This document shows, piece by piece, positions 2,931 through 11,621 of a DNA stretch of 64,000 nucleotides. The DNA is taken from positions 124,001 to 188,000 of the forward strand of contig JAOZOU010000001.1 of assembly GCA_029933125.1 (NCBI GenBank). The letters run 5' to 3'. The notes beneath the pieces are model-generated. The model was not told the origin of the DNA, searched no databases, and worked only from the letters and a program-made list of their open reading frames with translations. Each line of letters starts with the position of its first letter. The stretch's first letter is position 1. Made by a program: the position numbers and the translations under genes. The DNA comes from a bacterium (lineage in GTDB: Bacteria > Arandabacterota > Arandabacteria > Arandabacterales > Arandabacteraceae).

Positions 2931-3031
2931 CTGTCCCGCCTTCTTGAACTAACATTGGGCATCTGCTAAGGCAACCCCCCGCTTTGCCAGCCCGGGGCAA
3001 CCTTTAGGTGTGTCAAGCCATCGCCTAAGCG

Positions 3032-3044
3032 TGTCAGACCGACA
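3032..3044. promoter_or_regulatory. Possible upstream activator site (TGTC-N5-GACA)
   Basis: The gap of 465 bp after the response regulator holds an inverted repeat TGTC AGACC GACA about 104 bp upstream of the sigma-54 promoter, a distance usual for enhancer-binding proteins. A second inverted repeat, TGGGA-N13-TCCCA, lies at 3121-3143 closer to the promoter. Neither is a proven binding site; short inverted repeats arise by chance. Confidence 0.22.
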
Positions 3045-3147: not shown

Positions 3148-3163
3148 TGGCACGATGGTTGCA
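3148..3163 (+). promoter_or_regulatory. Sigma-54 (RpoN) promoter, perfect consensus
   Basis: TGGCACG ATGG TTGCA matches the RpoN -24/-12 consensus (TGGCACG-N4-TTGCW) at every position. The predicted start point is near 3174, ahead of the small frame at 3211 and the large gene at 3396. It sits in the intergenic gap directly behind a sigma-54 activator gene, which makes a chance match unlikely. I found no second site of comparable quality elsewhere in the window. Confidence 0.75.
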
Positions 3164-3210: not shown

Positions 3211-3324
3211 ATGAGAGGGACTGGCACCAAGATTGGTCTGGCAGTAGAATTAATTGAAATTGTAGTTCTTTATGCTTCAGTGCAATTTGCGGGATTGTAC
3301 TTCCTGAGCAAGTTATTTCTGTAG
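3211..3324 (+). CDS. Possible 37-residue single-helix membrane peptide
   Basis: A frame too short for routine gene calling lies just after the sigma-54 promoter. It has a good ribosome-binding site (AAGGAG ending 10 bases before the ATG), a basic N-terminus (MRGTGTK) and a long hydrophobic stretch from about residue 8 to 37, consistent with one membrane-spanning helix carrying two glutamates (13 and 16). The same frame is open from an ATG at 3181, but only the 3211 start has the ribosome-binding site. It would be the first gene of the sigma-54 transcript that also covers the gene at 3396. No family is recognised, and coding status rests only on the site, the composition and the position. Confidence 0.45.
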   Translation: MRGTGTKIGLAVELIEIVVLYASVQFAGLYFLSKLFL

Positions 3325-3395: not shown

Positions 3396-6191
3396 ATGAA
3401 GCCAAAACTGTGGGCTGTTTTTTTCGTTTTGTTTTTGTCAATCGCTTTCCCTGCCACTTGGGCAACTCGGCTTAAGGCAGATCCCCTGGCGCTAGGCACT
3501 CTTGACACTCAGGCAAAGGAAAATGAGGAAAAAGCCAGGGAACTCGTCACGGATCTCGGCATGGACATTGCAATCGACGATAGCGACATCGTCAGGATTG
3601 GAACAGGCTATACGGTTGCCGAAGGGGAATCTGTTGGTGGTGATGTTGTCATAATTGGCGGCGGCTTAACTGTCAATGGAACAATTAAAGGTGATGCAGT
3701 CGTTATCGGCGGATCCATGTATCTTTCTTCAAGTGCAGTTGTCAAAGGTGATGCAGTCGTTATCGGAGGGATTCTTCAGCAGGAGCCAGGCGCGGTTGTC
3801 GAAGGGGAGATTGTTGAGAATCCTGAGAAACTTGTAGAACGTGCAACATCTCCTCGTGAGAGCAAGGTTAGGTCAACTTCAGAGGACATCGTAAAGTTTG
3901 GAAAGGACATTCATGTTAAAGAGGGTGAGGTGGTTGATGGTGATGTCGTTGCTATTGGAGGTGATATCAGAATCGATGGCAAGGTCACAGGTGACGTTGT
4001 AGCGACCGCTGGTGATATAGAGCTCGGACCAACAGCCGAAGTCTTAGGAGACGTTGTTGCTACTTTTGGCGAAATCGAAGCTGAAGCGGGAGCTCAAACT
4101 GAAGGTGATGTTGTAGAGATAGATATGGGCGGGGCAAGCCAGGTGATTCATGAGGAAGAGGGGACTCAAGAAGGGATGACATATGTTATAAGCCTTTATG
4201 CCCCCGATGCAAAGGATGTACGTCTTACAGGAAACTGGCTCGATTGGGATCCCAAAGGCATAAAGATGGAGAAAAATCCAAAGGGTGTGTGGAAGACGAC
4301 TGTGAGTCTTCCTCCGGGTTCCTATCAATATAGATTCATCGCTGACGGGGTTGAGATGCCTGATCCTGATGTCAAAGAACAGGTTCCAGATGGAAGGGGT
4401 GGCTACGCCACGCCGCTTCTCGTCAAACCAAAACGTCCACAGGCAGAAACAGAAGTAGTGAAGATCATCTTTAGCTTAGACCGCCCAGAAGCTGAAGATG
4501 TGAGGGTAACCGGTAGCTGGCTCAACTGGGACCCCGAAGGCATAAAGATGGAAAAGAGCGAAAGTGGAACATGGTCAACCACTGTGAAACTCAAGCCAGG
4601 AAATTACACCTACAAGTTCTATATTGATGGTAAATGGGTCGCTGATCCTGACGTTGAAGCTAGGGTATCAGATGGCAAAGGTGGTTGGGCAACACCTTTT
4701 GCAGCCTATTCGCGCAAGGGCGAATACACGCCTATCAGATTCAGCCTCGATCGACCTGAGGCGGAGGATGTAAGAGTAAGCGGCAACTGGCTCAACTGGG
4801 ATGGCGAAGGAATTCGCATGGCAAGAGATAAAGATGGTGTATGGTCAATAACCGTACCCCTCAAGCCAGGCACTTATTATTACAAGTTCTATATTGATGG
4901 TAAATGGGTCGCTGACCCCGATGAACCTGAGAGGGCCGTATCTGACGGCAAGGGTGGTTATATGACCAAGTTCGTTGTCCACCCACGCAGGAAAGCCGAG
5001 AAATTTGCCTTTAAAGCCTCTGTAGAGAAAGAACGTCAAGGCGTTTCTGGTCTGCTTGACTACAACAGAGTGGATGGACTTTTGCTTGGGCTCAAGGCTA
5101 GCAACACAAAGAATGTATTTCCTATGCCGAGGTTCAAGCTCGAAGGTGGCTATACATACAAGCGCAAGCGCTGGTTTTATAGCTTCGAAGTTGAGCAACC
5201 CCTCCTCCCACCTTTCAGGCTAAGTGCGGGTGGAAGCATATACGATAAAACGGAATCAGAGGATCAGGAACTCATATCGGACATTGAAAATCTTCTCGTC
5301 GCTTCGTTCCTCAAGCAGGACTATCGCGACTATTTCGATCTGCGCGGGGTAGCTGGTTTCGTTGCTCTACGTCCTTGGAAAAATCACATTATCAAGTTGG
5401 CCTACAGTGAAAATGAATATCGTCCGCTTGAGACTCGCGCCCATACATCACTTTTCTTCAGAAAGGATAGGGACTTCCGACCAAACCCGCGCAATTCGGT
5501 TCAAATTTGCACAGACCCTCTCACAGGCAAGCGTATCTGTGACAAGATAGATGTCCACTCGCTCGTACTTTCCTATGAACTTGATACACGTGATGACCAA
5601 GATACACCCATGAATGGAATGTTGTTGCGCTTCTCTACCGAATGGGCTCGAGAGGGCTGGGGAAGTGATTACTCCTATGAAAGATATTCTGGGGACATAA
5701 GGCACTATGTCCCTGTCTCCCCTCAGCAGCTGGTTTCATTTCGAATAAAGGCTGGGCTACTTGACATTTCCAATTATTGTCCTGCCTGCAGTGGGACTCT
5801 AAGGCCATGCCCACCTGAACTTCAATACTTCTTCCCGAAGCAGTTTGCTGTGGGTGGAATTGGCACACTTCCTGGATATGGTTACAAGCAATTCCAGGGA
5901 ACCCACATGATGCTTGTCAATTTCGAATATGTCTATTCCTTCAATGATGGTATGGCGATTGTATTCTTCTCCGATGCAGGCGATGCCTCGGGAGCTGTTC
6001 CGAGAAGCCGGTGGGACAGGGATAAGATATGGGACACAATGAAATTCAAGGTCGATACCGGCCTCGCCCTCAGACACGAAGAAAGCGGGGATTACAGCTT
6101 TACAATTGGAATTGCAAAAGGGATTACTAAACTTTATGATAAAGACGGGAGACCGGTCATTGTAATTGTAAGAGCTAGTCGGCCATTTTAG
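3396..6191 (+). CDS. Bactofilin-like / triple CBM48-like / Omp85-barrel fusion protein
   Basis: Exported protein of 931 residues with an architecture I do not recognise. A signal peptide (about 1-24) is followed by bactofilin-like beta-solenoid repeats in two blocks (about 65-135 and 165-245; VGGDVVIIGGG, GDAVVIGG, DVVAIGGDIRIDGKVTGDVV). Three AMPK/CBM48-like E-set modules follow (about 261-345, 353-440, 444-535), each with the W-L-x-WD ... PG-x-Y-x-YKF ... DG ... DPD pattern. The last 385 residues look like an Omp85/BamA surface-antigen barrel: a DTRDDQDTPMNG strand motif, LPGYGY in place of the VRGY loop motif, and a terminal Phe. POTRA domains are absent; the modules replace them. CBM48 modules usually bind glycogen-like glucans, so a surface glucan-binding or export role is possible but unproven. 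The start has a good ribosome-binding site, AAGGAG. It is apparently transcribed from the sigma-54 promoter at 3148. Confidence 0.82.
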   Translation: MKPKLWAVFFVLFLSIAFPATWATRLKADPLALGTLDTQAKENEEKARELVTDLGMDIAIDDSDIVRIGTGYTVAEGESVGGDVVIIGGGLTVNGTIKGDAVVIGGSMYLSSSAVVKGDAVVIGGILQQEPGAVVEGEIVENPEKLVERATSPRESKVRSTSEDIVKFGKDIHVKEGEVVDGDVVAIGGDIRIDGKVTGDVVATAGDIELGPTAEVLGDVVATFGEIEAEAGAQTEGDVVEIDMGGASQVIHEEEGTQEGMTYVISLYAPDAKDVRLTGNWLDWDPKGIKMEKNPKGVWKTTVSLPPGSYQYRFIADGVEMPDPDVKEQVPDGRGGYATPLLVKPKRPQAETEVVKIIFSLDRPEAEDVRVTGSWLNWDPEGIKMEKSESGTWSTTVKLKPGNYTYKFYIDGKWVADPDVEARVSDGKGGWATPFAAYSRKGEYTPIRFSLDRPEAEDVRVSGNWLNWDGEGIRMARDKDGVWSITVPLKPGTYYYKFYIDGKWVADPDEPERAVSDGKGGYMTKFVVHPRRKAEKFAFKASVEKERQGVSGLLDYNRVDGLLLGLKASNTKNVFPMPRFKLEGGYTYKRKRWFYSFEVEQPLLPPFRLSAGGSIYDKTESEDQELISDIENLLVASFLKQDYRDYFDLRGVAGFVALRPWKNHIIKLAYSENEYRPLETRAHTSLFFRKDRDFRPNPRNSVQICTDPLTGKRICDKIDVHSLVLSYELDTRDDQDTPMNGMLLRFSTEWAREGWGSDYSYERYSGDIRHYVPVSPQQLVSFRIKAGLLDISNYCPACSGTLRPCPPELQYFFPKQFAVGGIGTLPGYGYKQFQGTHMMLVNFEYVYSFNDGMAIVFFSDAGDASGAVPRSRWDRDKIWDTMKFKVDTGLALRHEESGDYSFTIGIAKGITKLYDKDGRPVIVIVRASRPF

Positions 6192-6219: not shown

Positions 6220-6852
6220 ATGAGGAAGGTAGTATGCTGCCTGTTGGCTTTTCTTCTGCTTCTTGCACTCTCTTCGCTGCGCGCATGGGCTGATCCGAGA
6301 CTCTCGGTATCTGACATTTACGATGATGATGGATATCTCTGTATCGATTTCCGTCTCTACGAGGGGATCGATTCGGAGATCCTTAAGACTCTCAAGGATG
6401 GCATCCCCGCCCAACTTAGATACCGCATCAATGTGTGGCTTGACCGCTCCAGCTGGTCTGACAAGTTAGTAAAATCGGTTTCGCTTTCCTACAGAATAGA
6501 TTACGATAATTGGGATACGCTTTACTCCGTGACAATTCGTGACGATGATTCCGAAACAACGACTGGCAGACGTGATGTTGCAGAACTCATCCATCTGGTC
6601 TGTAATCAGCAGCGCATAAAGATTTGTCCTCTTGTGGTACTCGATTCGCTTGCTGACTACTACATCACTATTTCAGCAGAGGTAAAGTCATTGAGTGCTG
6701 ATCGTGTACGGGAGATAGACTCGTGGCTGGGTGGAGACAAGGATGATGAGGGGGGTGGACTTCTGGGATTCATTGTCGGTCTATTCAGGTCAAAGAACAA
6801 GTCCGCCAAGACCAAAAGTCACACATTCAGTTTGAAAGGTATCTCTAGGTGA
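6220..6852 (+). CDS. DUF4390-family exported protein
   Basis: 210-residue protein with a clear signal peptide (about 1-24, ending LRAWA) and the layout of DUF4390 proteins: a beta-rich region with the segments GIPAQLRYRINVW and YRIDYDNWDTLYSVTI. Function is unknown. From general knowledge, DUF4390 genes lie beside ntrY/ntrX in several Betaproteobacteria, and here the family again occurs near an NtrYX-like pair; this supports both assignments and hints at a link with envelope sensing. The C-terminus has an acidic-glycine linker (about residues 170-180) and a short hydrophobic stretch (LLGFIVGLF), then a basic tail. The stop overlaps the next start by 4 bp, so it is in an operon with the TPR gene. 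Confidence 0.65.
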   Translation: MRKVVCCLLAFLLLLALSSLRAWADPRLSVSDIYDDDGYLCIDFRLYEGIDSEILKTLKDGIPAQLRYRINVWLDRSSWSDKLVKSVSLSYRIDYDNWDTLYSVTIRDDDSETTTGRRDVAELIHLVCNQQRIKICPLVVLDSLADYYITISAEVKSLSADRVREIDSWLGGDKDDEGGGLLGFIVGLFRSKNKSAKTKSHTFSLKGISR

Positions 6853-7508
6853 GCCAGCAGGAGGATCAACAAGAAAGAGCACGGCGCAGGCTTAGCCAGC
6901 TCGAGGATCAGCTCGAACTCGATCCCGACAATGTTAATCTCCTGCTCGAAGCCTCACGTTACTATCACAGATTCGCCATGCAGGGTAGCGATGAAGCTTT
7001 CAACAAAGCCGAGCGATCGATAGCAAGAATCCTTAAGTTTGACAAGAACAATGTGGAGGCCTTATCGATAGCTGGCAGCTTGCTAACGATAAAGGCGAGA
7101 AGATCAGGCTCACTCCTGAAGAGGATATGGTATTCAATCATAGCTGCTCGTAAGCTTGACCGTGCAGTCAAGATCGATCCAACCAACCTGAGCGCAAGAA
7201 CGATTCGTGCCTTCACGGCTCTTGTGCTGCCTGGCTTTCTTAGGCGTCTCAAGACAGCTGCAGAAGACTTCGAATACCTTATCGATGTCAAATCTCACCA
7301 TCCGGCGAGCCTACCTGATGAGATGATGCCTAAGATCTATTTCAATCTTGGACTGGCTTATGCCAAGATAGGCGACAGTGACCGAGCAAGCAAAGTCTTG
7401 TCATTTGTGACGGAAAACTATCCGGGTACTCGCGAACACAATCGTGCCAAGAGTTTGCTTGCAAAGCTCAAAGAGATGCGCCTTAGAAGGAAATCATTCA
7501 CAGGATAA
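6849..7508 (+). CDS. TPR-repeat protein
   Basis: 219-residue soluble protein without a signal peptide, built of helical tetratricopeptide repeats; the clearest units are about 15-50 (LEDQLELDPDNVNLLLEASRYY), about 55-80, about 100-125 and about 155-190 (FNLGLAYAKIGDSDRASKVL). It starts at GTG overlapping the DUF4390 stop. TPRs mediate protein contacts, so a scaffold or cofactor role for the neighbouring envelope proteins is plausible; nothing more specific can be read from the sequence. Confidence 0.7.
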   Translation: MSQQEDQQERARRRLSQLEDQLELDPDNVNLLLEASRYYHRFAMQGSDEAFNKAERSIARILKFDKNNVEALSIAGSLLTIKARRSGSLLKRIWYSIIAARKLDRAVKIDPTNLSARTIRAFTALVLPGFLRRLKTAAEDFEYLIDVKSHHPASLPDEMMPKIYFNLGLAYAKIGDSDRASKVLSFVTENYPGTREHNRAKSLLAKLKEMRLRRKSFTG

Positions 7509-7518
7509 AGTAAGGGAT

Positions 7519-8361
7519 ATGACTCAGGGATTGATCGGATGGAGTTCGGGGCGCCCTGCCCTGGCTTGCATCTTAGCAGTCAATTTTTTTGTTCTCTTCC
7601 TGCTCCTGGTTGTCAGTGCCTGGTGCGCCGAAGGCGACATCGATTCAACATTTGCCTATAGGGAAATATTCCTACCACCGGGGCTACCCTCTGTAGCCTT
7701 GAGGACAGATGAAACAGCCCTGCTTTGGAATCCTGCGGGTATTGCCATGTCAAGGACCTATTATCTTGGCTATGCATGGAAGGGGGTCTATCTGGGCGAT
7801 CACCCTCATGTCATAAGTCAGTTCTTCTTGGCAAAGTCAAAGGGCTTCGGATTGGGATATATGCACGACAGCCACTCGCCTGGTGACGCAAACACCTATA
7901 TTCTCACACTGGCACCTGCGGTATCACGCACCATCGCTCTCGGCTTCACGGGAAAGTGGCGAGGCGGATTCAATTTTGATTGCGGGTTCATGGGTAACTT
8001 CCACAATCGCTTGAGCGTCGGTTTCGTTGCTCGCAACCTGCGGAAAAAGACAGACGCTAGGAGATATTATGAAGGAGGCATTGCGATAAACATCCTCCCT
8101 CATAAGCTCTCCACTTTCTTTGAGGTCGTTAATGAGAATAGCAAGTGGCATAAGGCAACATCCTATGGCATCGGCATTATTAGCACTTTCAAGGGTGGAA
8201 TGTGCGCAAGTCTTACCTATTTCACCGACACAGATGATATCTCAGTTGTGAGAGCAACCCTGCGCTTCGTGCTTTCCCGCAATATCATTGAAGGAGAATA
8301 TTCAAACTTTACAAATGATCATTCCATAGTTGGCGCACGCATCGTATCCCACAGTCCTTAG
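7519..8361 (+). CDS. PorV/UPF0164-like outer-membrane barrel protein
   Basis: 280 residues from the ATG at 7519, preceded by TAAGGGAT. A signal peptide with a long hydrophobic core ends at about residue 39 (SAWCAEGD). The mature part begins with the hallmark of PorV/PorQ/UPF0164-type barrels, TDETALLWNPAGIAMS, and continues as alternating amphipathic strands to the end. In Bacteroidetes, PorV shuttles type IX cargo at the outer membrane, which would fit the many C-terminally tailed proteins in this window, but relatives outside type IX systems exist. It is last in the run of four plus-strand genes and faces the minus-strand operon 14 bp away. An in-frame TTG at 7444, inside the TPR gene, is a less likely start. 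Confidence 0.65.
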   Translation: MTQGLIGWSSGRPALACILAVNFFVLFLLLVVSAWCAEGDIDSTFAYREIFLPPGLPSVALRTDETALLWNPAGIAMSRTYYLGYAWKGVYLGDHPHVISQFFLAKSKGFGLGYMHDSHSPGDANTYILTLAPAVSRTIALGFTGKWRGGFNFDCGFMGNFHNRLSVGFVARNLRKKTDARRYYEGGIAINILPHKLSTFFEVVNENSKWHKATSYGIGIISTFKGGMCASLTYFTDTDDISVVRATLRFVLSRNIIEGEYSNFTNDHSIVGARIVSHSP

Positions 8362-8375
8362 GTTCCTGCTCAAGC

Positions 8376-9386
8376 TCAGTCCTTAACAGGTCGTGTTCCA
8401 AACCTTGACATAACAACTGCTCCGAGACCGACTGTGGCAGCAACATAGACTACTGCCCATCCAATCAAAGAGGCAACATAGCCAAAGGCACCAACAGCAC
8501 CTCCAGAAAGTCTGAGGATACCTCCAAGTATTGTTAGAGCCTGTAAGAACACGACACCTATCATAAGACTCACATATTTCGATCGTTCGCTGTGGTTCCC
8601 CCATCTCCTGCCAATAGCTACAGACACACCTGTATAGCCTAGCAGAAAGGCAACAAGTGCACCCAGGGCAACGAGCATGGAAATTGGAATGCCTATGATG
8701 GTTATTGCAAAGACGGCTATTACAGCAGCTATTATGACCTCAGCAAGCAAGCCGATAAGCCCCATCTTAAAGGCACTCTTCGTGGCAGCATCCGTTACCC
8801 TGTCCACACCAACTCCTGCAACGGCTATGATGAGAGCACCGACGATTATCAAGAGTACTGTGAAGGCGAGCTTGCCTGCGAGTTGCCATCCTCGCGAGAA
8901 AATACCGCCCCCAACACCACCAAGGGGATGAAACCGCGGTCTTGTTGCTGTGCCTCTTCCTACGCTTACGGTTTGCCCTCTTACCATCCCACCAGGCTCC
9001 TTTGTGACCATCCCCAGCACTGCAACAGCATCACCCTTTATCTCGCCACTCTCGCTGACATCTATGCTCCCACCAACAGAGACAGCGTCGCCCTCAATCG
9101 TTCCTTCACAAATGACATCACCAAAAATGGCAACAACGTCTCCTTCAATCACCTCATCTTTATCAACAAAGACGTCATCGCCAATGCGCACAACATCCTC
9201 GCCGATGACTGTGACTTTACCCTCAGCCCGGCTGGTCTCGTGAGTCTCCAACTTGCTTTGCCCAACACGGATACCCTCATCATCAATTTGCACCTCGGTA
9301 ACAACCGAATCAGGTGTTGCACTTGAGGGCGAATAGAGCAAAACGAGCACAGTGAGAAAGAGCAAAATTCTTAGGCCTGACTTCAT
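8376..9386 (-). CDS. Bactofilin-like beta-solenoid membrane protein
   Basis: 336 residues from the ATG at 9386, which overlaps the stop of the anti-sigma gene (ATGA). A signal peptide (about 1-23, ending SSATP) is followed by short-period repeats of the bactofilin/polymer-forming type between about 45 and 150 (GDDVFVDKDEVIEGDVVAIF, GDAVSVGGSIDV, GDAVAVLGMV). Four hydrophobic helices fill about 170-325. The same type of repeat occurs in the protein at 3396, so two envelope proteins in this window carry it. As the last gene of the sigma-factor operon it may be a structural or sensory envelope component. Bactofilins are normally cytoplasmic; here the repeats should face the periplasm. Confidence 0.7.
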   Translation of the reverse strand: MKSGLRILLFLTVLVLLYSPSSATPDSVVTEVQIDDEGIRVGQSKLETHETSRAEGKVTVIGEDVVRIGDDVFVDKDEVIEGDVVAIFGDVICEGTIEGDAVSVGGSIDVSESGEIKGDAVAVLGMVTKEPGGMVRGQTVSVGRGTATRPRFHPLGGVGGGIFSRGWQLAGKLAFTVLLIIVGALIIAVAGVGVDRVTDAATKSAFKMGLIGLLAEVIIAAVIAVFAITIIGIPISMLVALGALVAFLLGYTGVSVAIGRRWGNHSERSKYVSLMIGVVFLQALTILGGILRLSGGAVGAFGYVASLIGWAVVYVAATVGLGAVVMSRFGTRPVKD

Positions 9387-9976
9387 AGTTTTGCCTCCTT
9401 CCTCTGGCGCATAACGCCCGAGAAGCCAAAGAAGATTACGCATGCGATAATCCCTGCCAAAAGCACACAGAAATAGAAAATCTTAGGATAGAAGAGTAAG
9501 CCCTCCCCGATTCGTCGAATCGCAATAACGCTTCCAAACGCTTCAAGAAGAGCTCGTGAAGTTGAAATGAAATCAACGATAAGACTGAAATCGAAGGCAC
9601 CAGCCACCACACCCAGAAGTTTGATCAATGCCTCAAAGAAGATAAGAAATCTTTCGTTGAGAGCTATGCTTGCAAGTGTAATGCTACCAACAACAACCCC
9701 CCACCTTAAAAGGTTTGTTGCCAGAAGCCTCCGTCGTGCGATCCTCACTGCCAGAGGAGCAATATTTGGTGACGCAAGGGGCCGGGATGATCTTATTGCT
9801 TCCACAAGAGCAAAATCCTCACCGTAAGTCCTCCGACACTGGCTGCAGACTGCAAGGTGAGTCTCGAGATTCTCAAAGCTCATTGCCTTGGCATCTGAGG
9901 CAATCTGAGCTTCCTCTTCCGAGAGATGAGCAAAGTATGCTCTTACATCTTCACATGTTACATGCTTACTATTCAT
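9383..9976 (-). CDS. Zinc-finger anti-sigma factor, membrane bound
   Basis: 197 residues. The N-terminal cytoplasmic domain carries the zinc anti-sigma signature H-x3-C-x2-C (HLAVCSQC, about residues 39-46) with an upstream Cys (TCEDVRAYF). Hydrophobic segments follow at about 90-108, 112-135 and 168-190, so it is anchored in the membrane. It should hold the ECF sigma factor encoded two genes upstream. The gene sits 2 bp after the DUF4097 gene and overlaps the next by 4 bp. An anti-sigma gene directly after its sigma gene is the usual order; here a DUF4097 gene is inserted between them. Confidence 0.75.
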   Translation of the reverse strand: MNSKHVTCEDVRAYFAHLSEEEAQIASDAKAMSFENLETHLAVCSQCRRTYGEDFALVEAIRSSRPLASPNIAPLAVRIARRRLLATNLLRWGVVVGSITLASIALNERFLIFFEALIKLLGVVAGAFDFSLIVDFISTSRALLEAFGSVIAIRRIGEGLLFYPKIFYFCVLLAGIIACVIFFGFSGVMRQRKEAKL

Positions 9977-9978
9977 GG

Positions 9979-11034
9979 CTAAACTGTCCCCTGCCTCACA
10001 CTTACATCGCCACTCGAAGTAACAATTGTGAGCTTGAGTCGTCCATCACCGCCAATGCCTAGAAGATGCCTGCGGCTTGCCTCCTTGACAACAATTGGAA
10101 CTTTGGTGGTTATCGCTCCGCTCGAGGTTGTTATATCGAGAGTTACTGAAGCGCCATAGAGCACAACAGCGATATCCCCGCTTGAGGACTTAAGATCAAT
10201 CTCGTTTGTCTCAGTATATGTGGCTAAATCTATCTCACCGCTTGTCGTCGAGACATGAGCATTTCCCTTGTGAGACCCGAGGCTAACATCACCGCTGCTT
10301 GTCCTTATGTAGGCATCCCCAACCGACTCATCAATAGCGACATCACCACTTCCAGTGGCTATGTTGAAATCACCTTCAACATGCTCGATTGAAAAATCAC
10401 CACTGCCCGATGAGCCATCAAACTTACCTCTTATCTCTGAAATAGTTACATCTCCACTTCCAGTGTTTACTGTAACATCACCATTCACACTGCCGAGGTG
10501 AATGTCACCACTTCCACTCCGCCACTCAAAGCCTGAGTCTGCGCCATCGATGACACCGTCACCACTTCCAGTAAGAACCTTAAGATGCGCCTGACGATGA
10601 TTCACACGCACATCTCCACTTCCAGTCGATATCTCAAGCGGAATATCAGGAAGGTATGCTACTATGCGGACCCTAACATAGCCTCGAGCAAGAGAATGCA
10701 GTCGTGATGTCTTCTTACTTTCCTGCCTGACAATGAGGCGAGAGCCTTGTTTTTCAAAAGTTATCTGAGTCTTATCAAGGAGCTCATCGATGTATTTCTT
10801 GCTTGATGCTCGGTATGCTTTCCTGATCTCAAATCTGGCCTCACCTGGCTCACCGGCTACTATCTTGACATCAGCTGAGCCTAACTGCATCTCCACGAGA
10901 TCAATTCCTGCCAGGTCAACCGTCTGCGTGTAAAGCTTATCACCCTTATAGCGATATTCAGCCAGGCCGCAGCTCAGTGAAACTGCAAAAATTGAAAATA
11001 AGAGCAAAAGAACCCATAGCCTATCTGTCTTCAT
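9979..11034 (-). CDS. DUF4097-type secreted beta-solenoid protein
   Basis: 351 residues with a signal peptide (about 1-24); the Cys after SLS resembles, but does not strictly match, a lipobox. From about residue 130 to 310 the chain is made of about ten short repeats centred on GSGDV or SSGDI (SGSGDIHLGSVNGDVTV and so on), the right-handed beta-solenoid pattern of DUF4097/DUF4098 proteins. Its start overlaps the sigma-factor stop by 4 bp. DUF4097 genes are often found in sigma/anti-sigma operons; the protein may be the envelope-side output or sensor. Its cellular role is not known. Confidence 0.75.
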   Translation of the reverse strand: MKTDRLWVLLLLFSIFAVSLSCGLAEYRYKGDKLYTQTVDLAGIDLVEMQLGSADVKIVAGEPGEARFEIRKAYRASSKKYIDELLDKTQITFEKQGSRLIVRQESKKTSRLHSLARGYVRVRIVAYLPDIPLEISTGSGDVRVNHRQAHLKVLTGSGDGVIDGADSGFEWRSGSGDIHLGSVNGDVTVNTGSGDVTISEIRGKFDGSSGSGDFSIEHVEGDFNIATGSGDVAIDESVGDAYIRTSSGDVSLGSHKGNAHVSTTSGEIDLATYTETNEIDLKSSSGDIAVVLYGASVTLDITTSSGAITTKVPIVVKEASRRHLLGIGGDGRLKLTIVTSSGDVSVRQGTV

Positions 11035-11621
11035 TGCCAGCCTCCTTCCTTGACCAGTTGCTTGAGTGTCTTATGGGCACGATGTAAGAGGATCTTTACT
11101 GTCCCGATGGGCATCGAAAGTGCATCCGCTATCTCGGCATATGAAAGTTCATGGCGATATCGCAGGAGAAGCACTGTGCGGTACTTAGTGTCAAGCTCCT
11201 CCATTGCTTTCTCAATCGCCTCAGCGGTTATCTTGTTGACAACCTGGCTATCAACAGGACTTTCTTTACTCGCGATATCCTCAAGTCCGCCGTCGACCTG
11301 ACGTTTTGCTTCTCGCCTTCGCTTTCTCAACACATCCAGTGCAGTAGTTGTTGCAATCCGAACAAGCCACTTGCCAAAGTCATACCGAGCATCATAACGA
11401 TTGAGATTCATAATTGCTTTTACCATCGTATCCTGCAAAGCATCCATTGCGTCATCTCGGTTGCGAACAATTCGCATGATAAGATCAAACACCGAAGATT
11501 CATATTGCCTGAGAAGGAGCTCCTGCGATTTTCTGTCACCTTGTTTTGCCTTCTCAATAAGTGTTCGCTCTATGCCATCTCTCCCGCCAACTTCAACTGG
11601 TGAACTATTGGTAGTTCCCAT
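11031..11621 (-). CDS. ECF RNA polymerase sigma factor
   Basis: 196 residues. Region 2 (about 35-105) includes the core-binding and -10-melting segment with DALQDTMVKAI and FGKWLVRIATTTALDVLRKR; region 4 (about 135-190) has the helix-turn-helix YRTVLLLRYRHELSYAEIAD followed by GTVKILLHRA. No region 1 or 3 is present, as in the ECF (sigma-70 group 4) class. It is the first gene of a four-gene operon whose members overlap or are 2 bp apart, so the operon is probably autoregulated, though I see no convincing ECF-type promoter in the 155 bp upstream. A weak AAGG ribosome-binding site precedes the ATG. Confidence 0.9.
   Translation of the reverse strand: MGTTNSSPVEVGGRDGIERTLIEKAKQGDRKSQELLLRQYESSVFDLIMRIVRNRDDAMDALQDTMVKAIMNLNRYDARYDFGKWLVRIATTTALDVLRKRRREAKRQVDGGLEDIASKESPVDSQVVNKITAEAIEKAMEELDTKYRTVLLLRYRHELSYAEIADALSMPIGTVKILLHRAHKTLKQLVKEGGWQ

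Follow-up and report, generated by a model that had tools for sequence, protein, structure and literature searches.

Our study identified a 931-residue protein that is an Omp85-superfamily outer-membrane barrel, in which a pair of bactofilin-like beta-helices, together with three modules of the starch-binding type, occupies the place of the usual periplasmic domains. The protein was found by ORF calling and Pfam at positions 3396-6191 of the 64,000-nucleotide stretch of bacterial DNA that we analyzed (hereafter, the window; features lie on its plus strand unless the minus strand is named). Its reading frame starts with an ATG preceded by a GGAG ribosome site, and its domains follow the order signal peptide, two bactofilin-type blocks (residues 66-142 and 166-245), three CBM48/AMPK E-sets (261-529) and an Omp85 barrel (549-931). 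The signal peptide (about residues 1-29; 3396-3482) was recognized by sequence inspection, and its region preserves ADPL or ASPL (putative cut after the Ala) among the orthologues. Together with DTRDDQDTPMNG, LPGYGY and the terminal Phe, all named in the original prediction, it is present in the 931-residue sequence. The full-length AlphaFold model, run on 11 family sequences, contains three E-sets, two beta-ladder stretches (57-141 and 165-249) and, within 549-928, the 16 strands of the barrel; with a mean pLDDT of 68.7 and a pTM of 0.41, its domain packing and inter-domain geometry are unreliable.

The first bactofilin-like block (3591-3821) was detected by the family profile (iE 2.2e-26) and modeled by AlphaFold with a pLDDT mostly above 90. 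Because this profile was partly trained on the protein itself, independent support comes from the PDB profile match to the Thermus bactofilin 6ria (5.7e-6) and from Pfam Bactofilin PF04519, which matches eight of the nine family members. The second block (3891-4130) was identified by Pfam (PF04519 at residues 166-239, 5e-7, barely over the cut-off), in family members, by the 6ria profile match and by AlphaFold. A separate AlphaFold model of the two blocks reached a mean pLDDT of 85; a Foldseek search with this two-block beta-helix returned no significant match, the hits being mostly beta-helices that include bactofilin 6ria at E 0.74, and therefore the bactofilin label depends on sequence profiles. 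What had been predicted as two blocks of polymer-forming repeats can be described as bactofilin-like by PF04519, the 6ria profile match and the beta-ladder model, a PF04519 match combined with a predicted beta-helix being what we require of a bactofilin.

The three E-set modules with AMPK/CBM48 features are likewise borne out, since the fold profile and AlphaFold concur: Pfam assigns AMPK1_CBM three times (6.2e-42) and CBM_48 three times (7e-28). We take the glucan-site residues of AMPK beta to be Trp, Lys and Trp. According to Pfam, alignment and AlphaFold, the Trp, Lys and Trp positions are retained in E-set 2 (residues 356-436; 4461-4703) and E-set 3 (446-529; 4731-4982) and not in E-set 1 (261-344; 4176-4427), where the second Trp is replaced by Met; the Asn position has no confident placement. 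More CBM48-like ORFs are clustered elsewhere in the same genome (G000:C76:292569-300206; L002, L004, L005, L007), where one match contains a TAG stop. In Omp85 barrels the N- and C-termini both lie on the periplasmic side, so the bactofilin-like and CBM48-type modules should, by analogy, be periplasmic. The N-terminal domain of PlpD, an Omp85 protein, remains periplasmic (PMC11116518).

The C-terminal region (residues 549-931; 5040-6188) is a 16-stranded Omp85 barrel according to Pfam, AlphaFold, Foldseek and profiles. Pfam Omp85 PF01103 matches residues 690-893 (3.5e-14), NCBIfam concurs, and Foldseek of the full-length model leads to BamA (1.2e-13) and TamA. In addition, a profile built from 34 related barrels matches Fusobacterium BamA (7e-22) as well as TamA and Toc75, and PF01103 matches all 34 subfamily members. 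A non-barrel fold for the C-terminal 385 residues, which would have contradicted the original prediction, did not appear in either profiles or model. No POTRA match was found in the 931-residue protein with Pfam (E up to 1) or NCBIfam, and residues 57-249 are modeled as all-beta ladders instead of the POTRA beta-alpha-alpha-beta-beta fold. An ordinary POTRA domain at 65-245 was ruled out on these two grounds; the proposal that POTRA had been replaced holds, its slot being occupied by the bactofilin-like and CBM48-type modules.

The lid lock of the barrel is formed in Omp85 proteins by the (V/I)RG(Y/F) motif of loop L6 against (F/G)xDxG of strand 13 (PMC4490367). In the AlphaFold model, a long L6 joins strands 11 and 12. 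Alignment against these motifs shows that the canonical RGY/F is represented by LPGY (5868-5879), the Arg having changed to Pro, while strand 13 keeps FxDxG as FSDAG (5967-5981). Because the lid-lock Arg is Pro, the classic insertase activity of this protein is doubtful, judging from its sequence. The L6 Arg is present in 27 of the 34 aligned barrels by a by-eye count; it has been lost from the window's own family and from a few more, with Pro also in the close relatives L059 and L060 (alignment A3) and IPAY in G004.

The search of other genomes suggested alongside the original prediction showed that the order of two bactofilin blocks, three CBM48 modules and barrel is found again in four further genomes from the family (identity 72%, 56%, 50% and 49%), in full or as far as the contigs reach, three of these copies ending at contig ends and the phylum sample comprising 8 genomes. 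Since the architecture recurs in four other genomes, it is not an assembly artefact, and a chimera was ruled out. A genome of the same class (G007) has one bactofilin block and one CBM. The viral sequence collection yielded no relatives, and the scan of the genome-contig collection gave a CBM in a Puia MAG as its sole match.

A barrel profile search across 386 genomes identified about 35 further full-length barrels from many families, in addition to partial matches that resemble BamA/TamA-type proteins. The N-terminal regions of these relatives consist of bactofilin only, CBM48-type E-set only, both, POTRA, or none; L092 and L094, which begin at contig edges, have N-termini outside this comparison. 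The E-set stands alone in G214 and G179 and in degenerate form in G244, G372 and G106, G201 and G332 are examples of barrels with no N-terminal domain, and in G323 (L084, ORF 7084-10620) the same barrel family is preceded by DUF4097, CBM9 and a real POTRA. The subfamily tree divides into two halves (96/94 support), and the NtrYX/DUF4390-linked rows, including the window, fall in one of them, except for L064 and L092, which belong to one family. Judging from these sequences, the barrel defines a broad and widespread Omp85 subfamily with a swappable N-terminal slot that is apparently undescribed.

The barrel gene belongs to an operon located downstream of ntrYX, the genes of a stress-sensing two-component system; in many bacteria the subfamily gene stands between this system and the gene of its periplasmic partner, DUF4390. 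Profile matches identified an NtrY-like histidine kinase with HAMP, HisKA and HATPase domains (25-1572), which has a second NtrY-like kinase immediately upstream (L058, 5350-6855), and an NtrX-like sigma-54 activator (1569-2930) with a sigma-54 activation domain and GAFTGA. The barrel gene is followed by a secreted, PlrP-like DUF4390 protein (PF14334; 6220-6852), a TPR protein assigned by Pfam (6849-7508) and a PorV-like outer-membrane protein with a weak match (7522-8361; an in-frame GTG at 7444 would lengthen it). NtrY, NtrX and DUF4390 are therefore encoded together in the window, as in NtrYX-PlrP-type systems. Facing this operon on the minus strand are a second bactofilin-like protein with a signal peptide, a bactofilin block and a hydrophobic C-terminus, inner-membrane anchored by inspection (8376-9443), a probable anti-sigma factor proposed from sequence and position, with no Pfam match (9383-9976), and, both by Pfam, a DUF4097 protein (9979-11034) and an ECF sigma factor (11031-11621).

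To place these genes in a wider context, we counted neighbors within 6 kb of 39 barrels and in 20 control regions that add up to a similar length and come from some of the same genomes. DUF4390, NtrX and NtrY occurred at 14, 13 and 14 barrels versus 0, 1 and 3 controls, and ECF factors, inner-membrane bactofilins and DUF4097 at 10, 8 and 7 barrels versus no control; the loci are not all independent, because the window's own family supplies several. PF14334 is present in 54 of the 386 genomes and lies at most 1.5 kb from a barrel in 15 of those 54. G372, G201, G332, G179 and G244 repeat this arrangement, with ntrX, barrel and DUF4390 in a row opposite bactofilin and ECF. The bactofilin-ECF pair (window 8376-11621) also recurs next to the barrel in other distant lineages. 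In a majority of the 39 subfamily loci, NtrX and DUF4390 are both absent within reach, and several of these loci have ECF or DUF4097 genes instead; therefore, NtrYX is not universal in the subfamily.

Upstream of the operon, motif search and conservation identified a sigma-54 -24/-12 promoter, TGGCACGATGGTTGCA (3148-3163), which is a perfect match. The pattern TGGCACN5TTGCA has 5 sites genome-wide versus 0 for a reversed-pattern control, and the genome encodes the sigma-54 gene (4.3e-63). The four other sites are at G000:C152:287095, G000:C162:20526, G000:C162:70767 and G000:C172:8409. Conservation also points to the palindrome GTGTCAGACCGACA (GTGTCAG-N3-GACA; 3031-3044), a candidate site for the activator with 117 bp between it and the -24 element downstream, and to the half-site GTGTGTCA (3008-3015); these two and the sigma-54 site are among the best-conserved blocks across three species of the family. 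Upstream of the barrels of other lineages, strong sigma-54 sites were not found in most, G303 being the one case besides the window's family, and therefore we do not extend sigma-54 control to the subfamily as a whole. Between promoter and barrel gene lies a small ORF of 37 amino acids with a single transmembrane segment (3211-3324), below the length that our ORF calling listed, conserved in three species (the window's, G001 and G004) and showing 21 third-position changes versus 11 and 7 at the other positions; a hydrophobic small ORF upstream of the barrel was found in none of nine other loci scanned, including L062 of the same class.

The reading that we prefer, and to which we give an even chance, is that the protein is an envelope-homeostasis factor under NtrX/sigma-54 control, with an outer-membrane Omp85 barrel that lacks POTRA and carries a periplasmic stalk. 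The barrel would sit in the outer membrane, and the bactofilin-like helices and E-sets would form the stalk, which may touch the cell wall or interact with other proteins of the periplasm. The operon, comprising the 37-residue membrane peptide, the 931-residue protein, DUF4390, TPR and PorV-like proteins, would be turned on from the sigma-54 promoter, with the NtrX encoded next to it as the most likely activator. The DUF4390 protein may exert feedback on NtrY, in the way that PlrP acts on PlrS. The domains, the lack of POTRA, the subfamily, the gene neighborhood and the promoter sequence are observed; activation by NtrX, the periplasmic side, the envelope role and the feedback are inferred. 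In Bordetella, PlrP genetically inhibits the PlrS phosphatase and colocalizes with NtrYX homologues, and genetics has defined PlrP (DUF4390) as the third component of systems of the NtrYX type (PMC13001219); in Rhodobacter, envelope genes are under NtrYX control (PMC7240162).

Other roles must be weighed against this one. The original prediction had proposed a surface device for glucan export or capture, in which the CBM48 modules would bind alpha-glucan and the barrel would let it pass. In its favor, E-sets 2 and 3 have Trp, Lys and Trp where the AMPK glucan site has them, but the second Trp is gone from E-set 1, the Lys varies among relatives (Q, T, A), and CBM48-like E-sets also have matches among proteins unrelated to glucans, the T9SS plug for example. 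The modules are, moreover, expected in the periplasm, the barrel and the same operon are retained by CBM-free relatives, and the neighbors are regulators (NtrYX, DUF4390, ECF) instead of glycan genes. The surface device as proposed is not supported, and we regard glucan export or capture as very unlikely; E-sets 2 and 3, with their retained Trp, Lys and Trp positions, may nonetheless bind glucan. An active insertase or translocase, with the solenoid and E-sets substituting for POTRA in the handling of client proteins, would fit the genuine Omp85 barrel, the retained FxDxG, the L6 Arg of most aligned barrels and the POTRA adjoining the barrel in G323; the replacement of the lid-lock Arg here and in the closest relatives and the several relatives devoid of any N-terminal domain make it unlikely in our view.

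The loss of that Arg would suit a barrel that is an inert anchor, with the stalk linking the outer membrane either to the wall or to the bactofilin of the inner membrane (8376-9443). The two bactofilin-like proteins are 38-42% identical across their blocks and their genes are conserved neighbors, which favors such a tie, but outside the phylum the barrels that neighbor an inner-membrane bactofilin (G244, G372, G201, G332 and G179) have no bactofilin block, and we judge the anchor improbable. The boldest reading, which we consider a long shot, makes the protein part of a trans-envelope sensor: its bactofilin stalk at the outer membrane would pair in the periplasm with the inner-membrane bactofilin, and the state of this bridge would be relayed to NtrY by way of DUF4390, and perhaps also to the ECF/anti-sigma pair. 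If true, bactofilins would act outside the cytoplasm as an envelope-spanning gauge.

These results point to a broad and apparently undescribed Omp85 subfamily that keeps its gene context but varies what fills its N-terminal slot, be it bactofilin, a CBM48-type module, POTRA or nothing. For NtrYX/DUF4390 systems beyond Proteobacteria they also supply a concrete candidate at the outer membrane, a partner or target whose gene has a sigma-54 promoter, so that envelope sensing and control by NtrYX becomes a directly testable question.

Regarding novelty, our searches found no literature joining Omp85 with bactofilin or DUF5686 with the outer membrane, which is weak evidence given that most subscription papers lie outside the search. 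The exact domain order was found in neither the literature nor the genomes searched outside the family, as the original prediction had anticipated; the lack of POTRA is itself not new, since non-POTRA and noNterm groups of Omp85 are recognized in the available part of Heinz and Lithgow 2014 (PMC4104836). PlpD and these groups share with our protein an Omp85 barrel whose N-terminal part departs from the standard; PlpD, however, carries a patatin domain, and that part of the text describes no bactofilin or CBM48 group. The barrel half of DUF5686 (PF18939) is matched by 24 of the 34 subfamily barrels, whereas the 931-residue protein stays under the curated cut-off, with 28 of 39.2 bits. With BamA and TamA it shares the 16-stranded C-terminal barrel, the position of L6, the strand-13 FxDxG and the terminal Phe, and it differs from them in having bactofilin-like and CBM48-type modules instead of POTRA and Pro instead of the lid-lock Arg. 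Profile and model show that the blocks resemble bactofilins (Thermus 6RIA, BacA) both in the sequence of their repeats and in their beta-ladder fold; unlike them, they are part of an exported protein and joined to a membrane barrel. Finally, the window resembles PlrSR-PlrP in its NtrY- and NtrX-like genes with a nearby DUF4390 gene, although the proteobacterial order is rsmB, plrP, ntrYX, whereas in the window ntrX and DUF4390 are separated by a gene for an outer-membrane protein.
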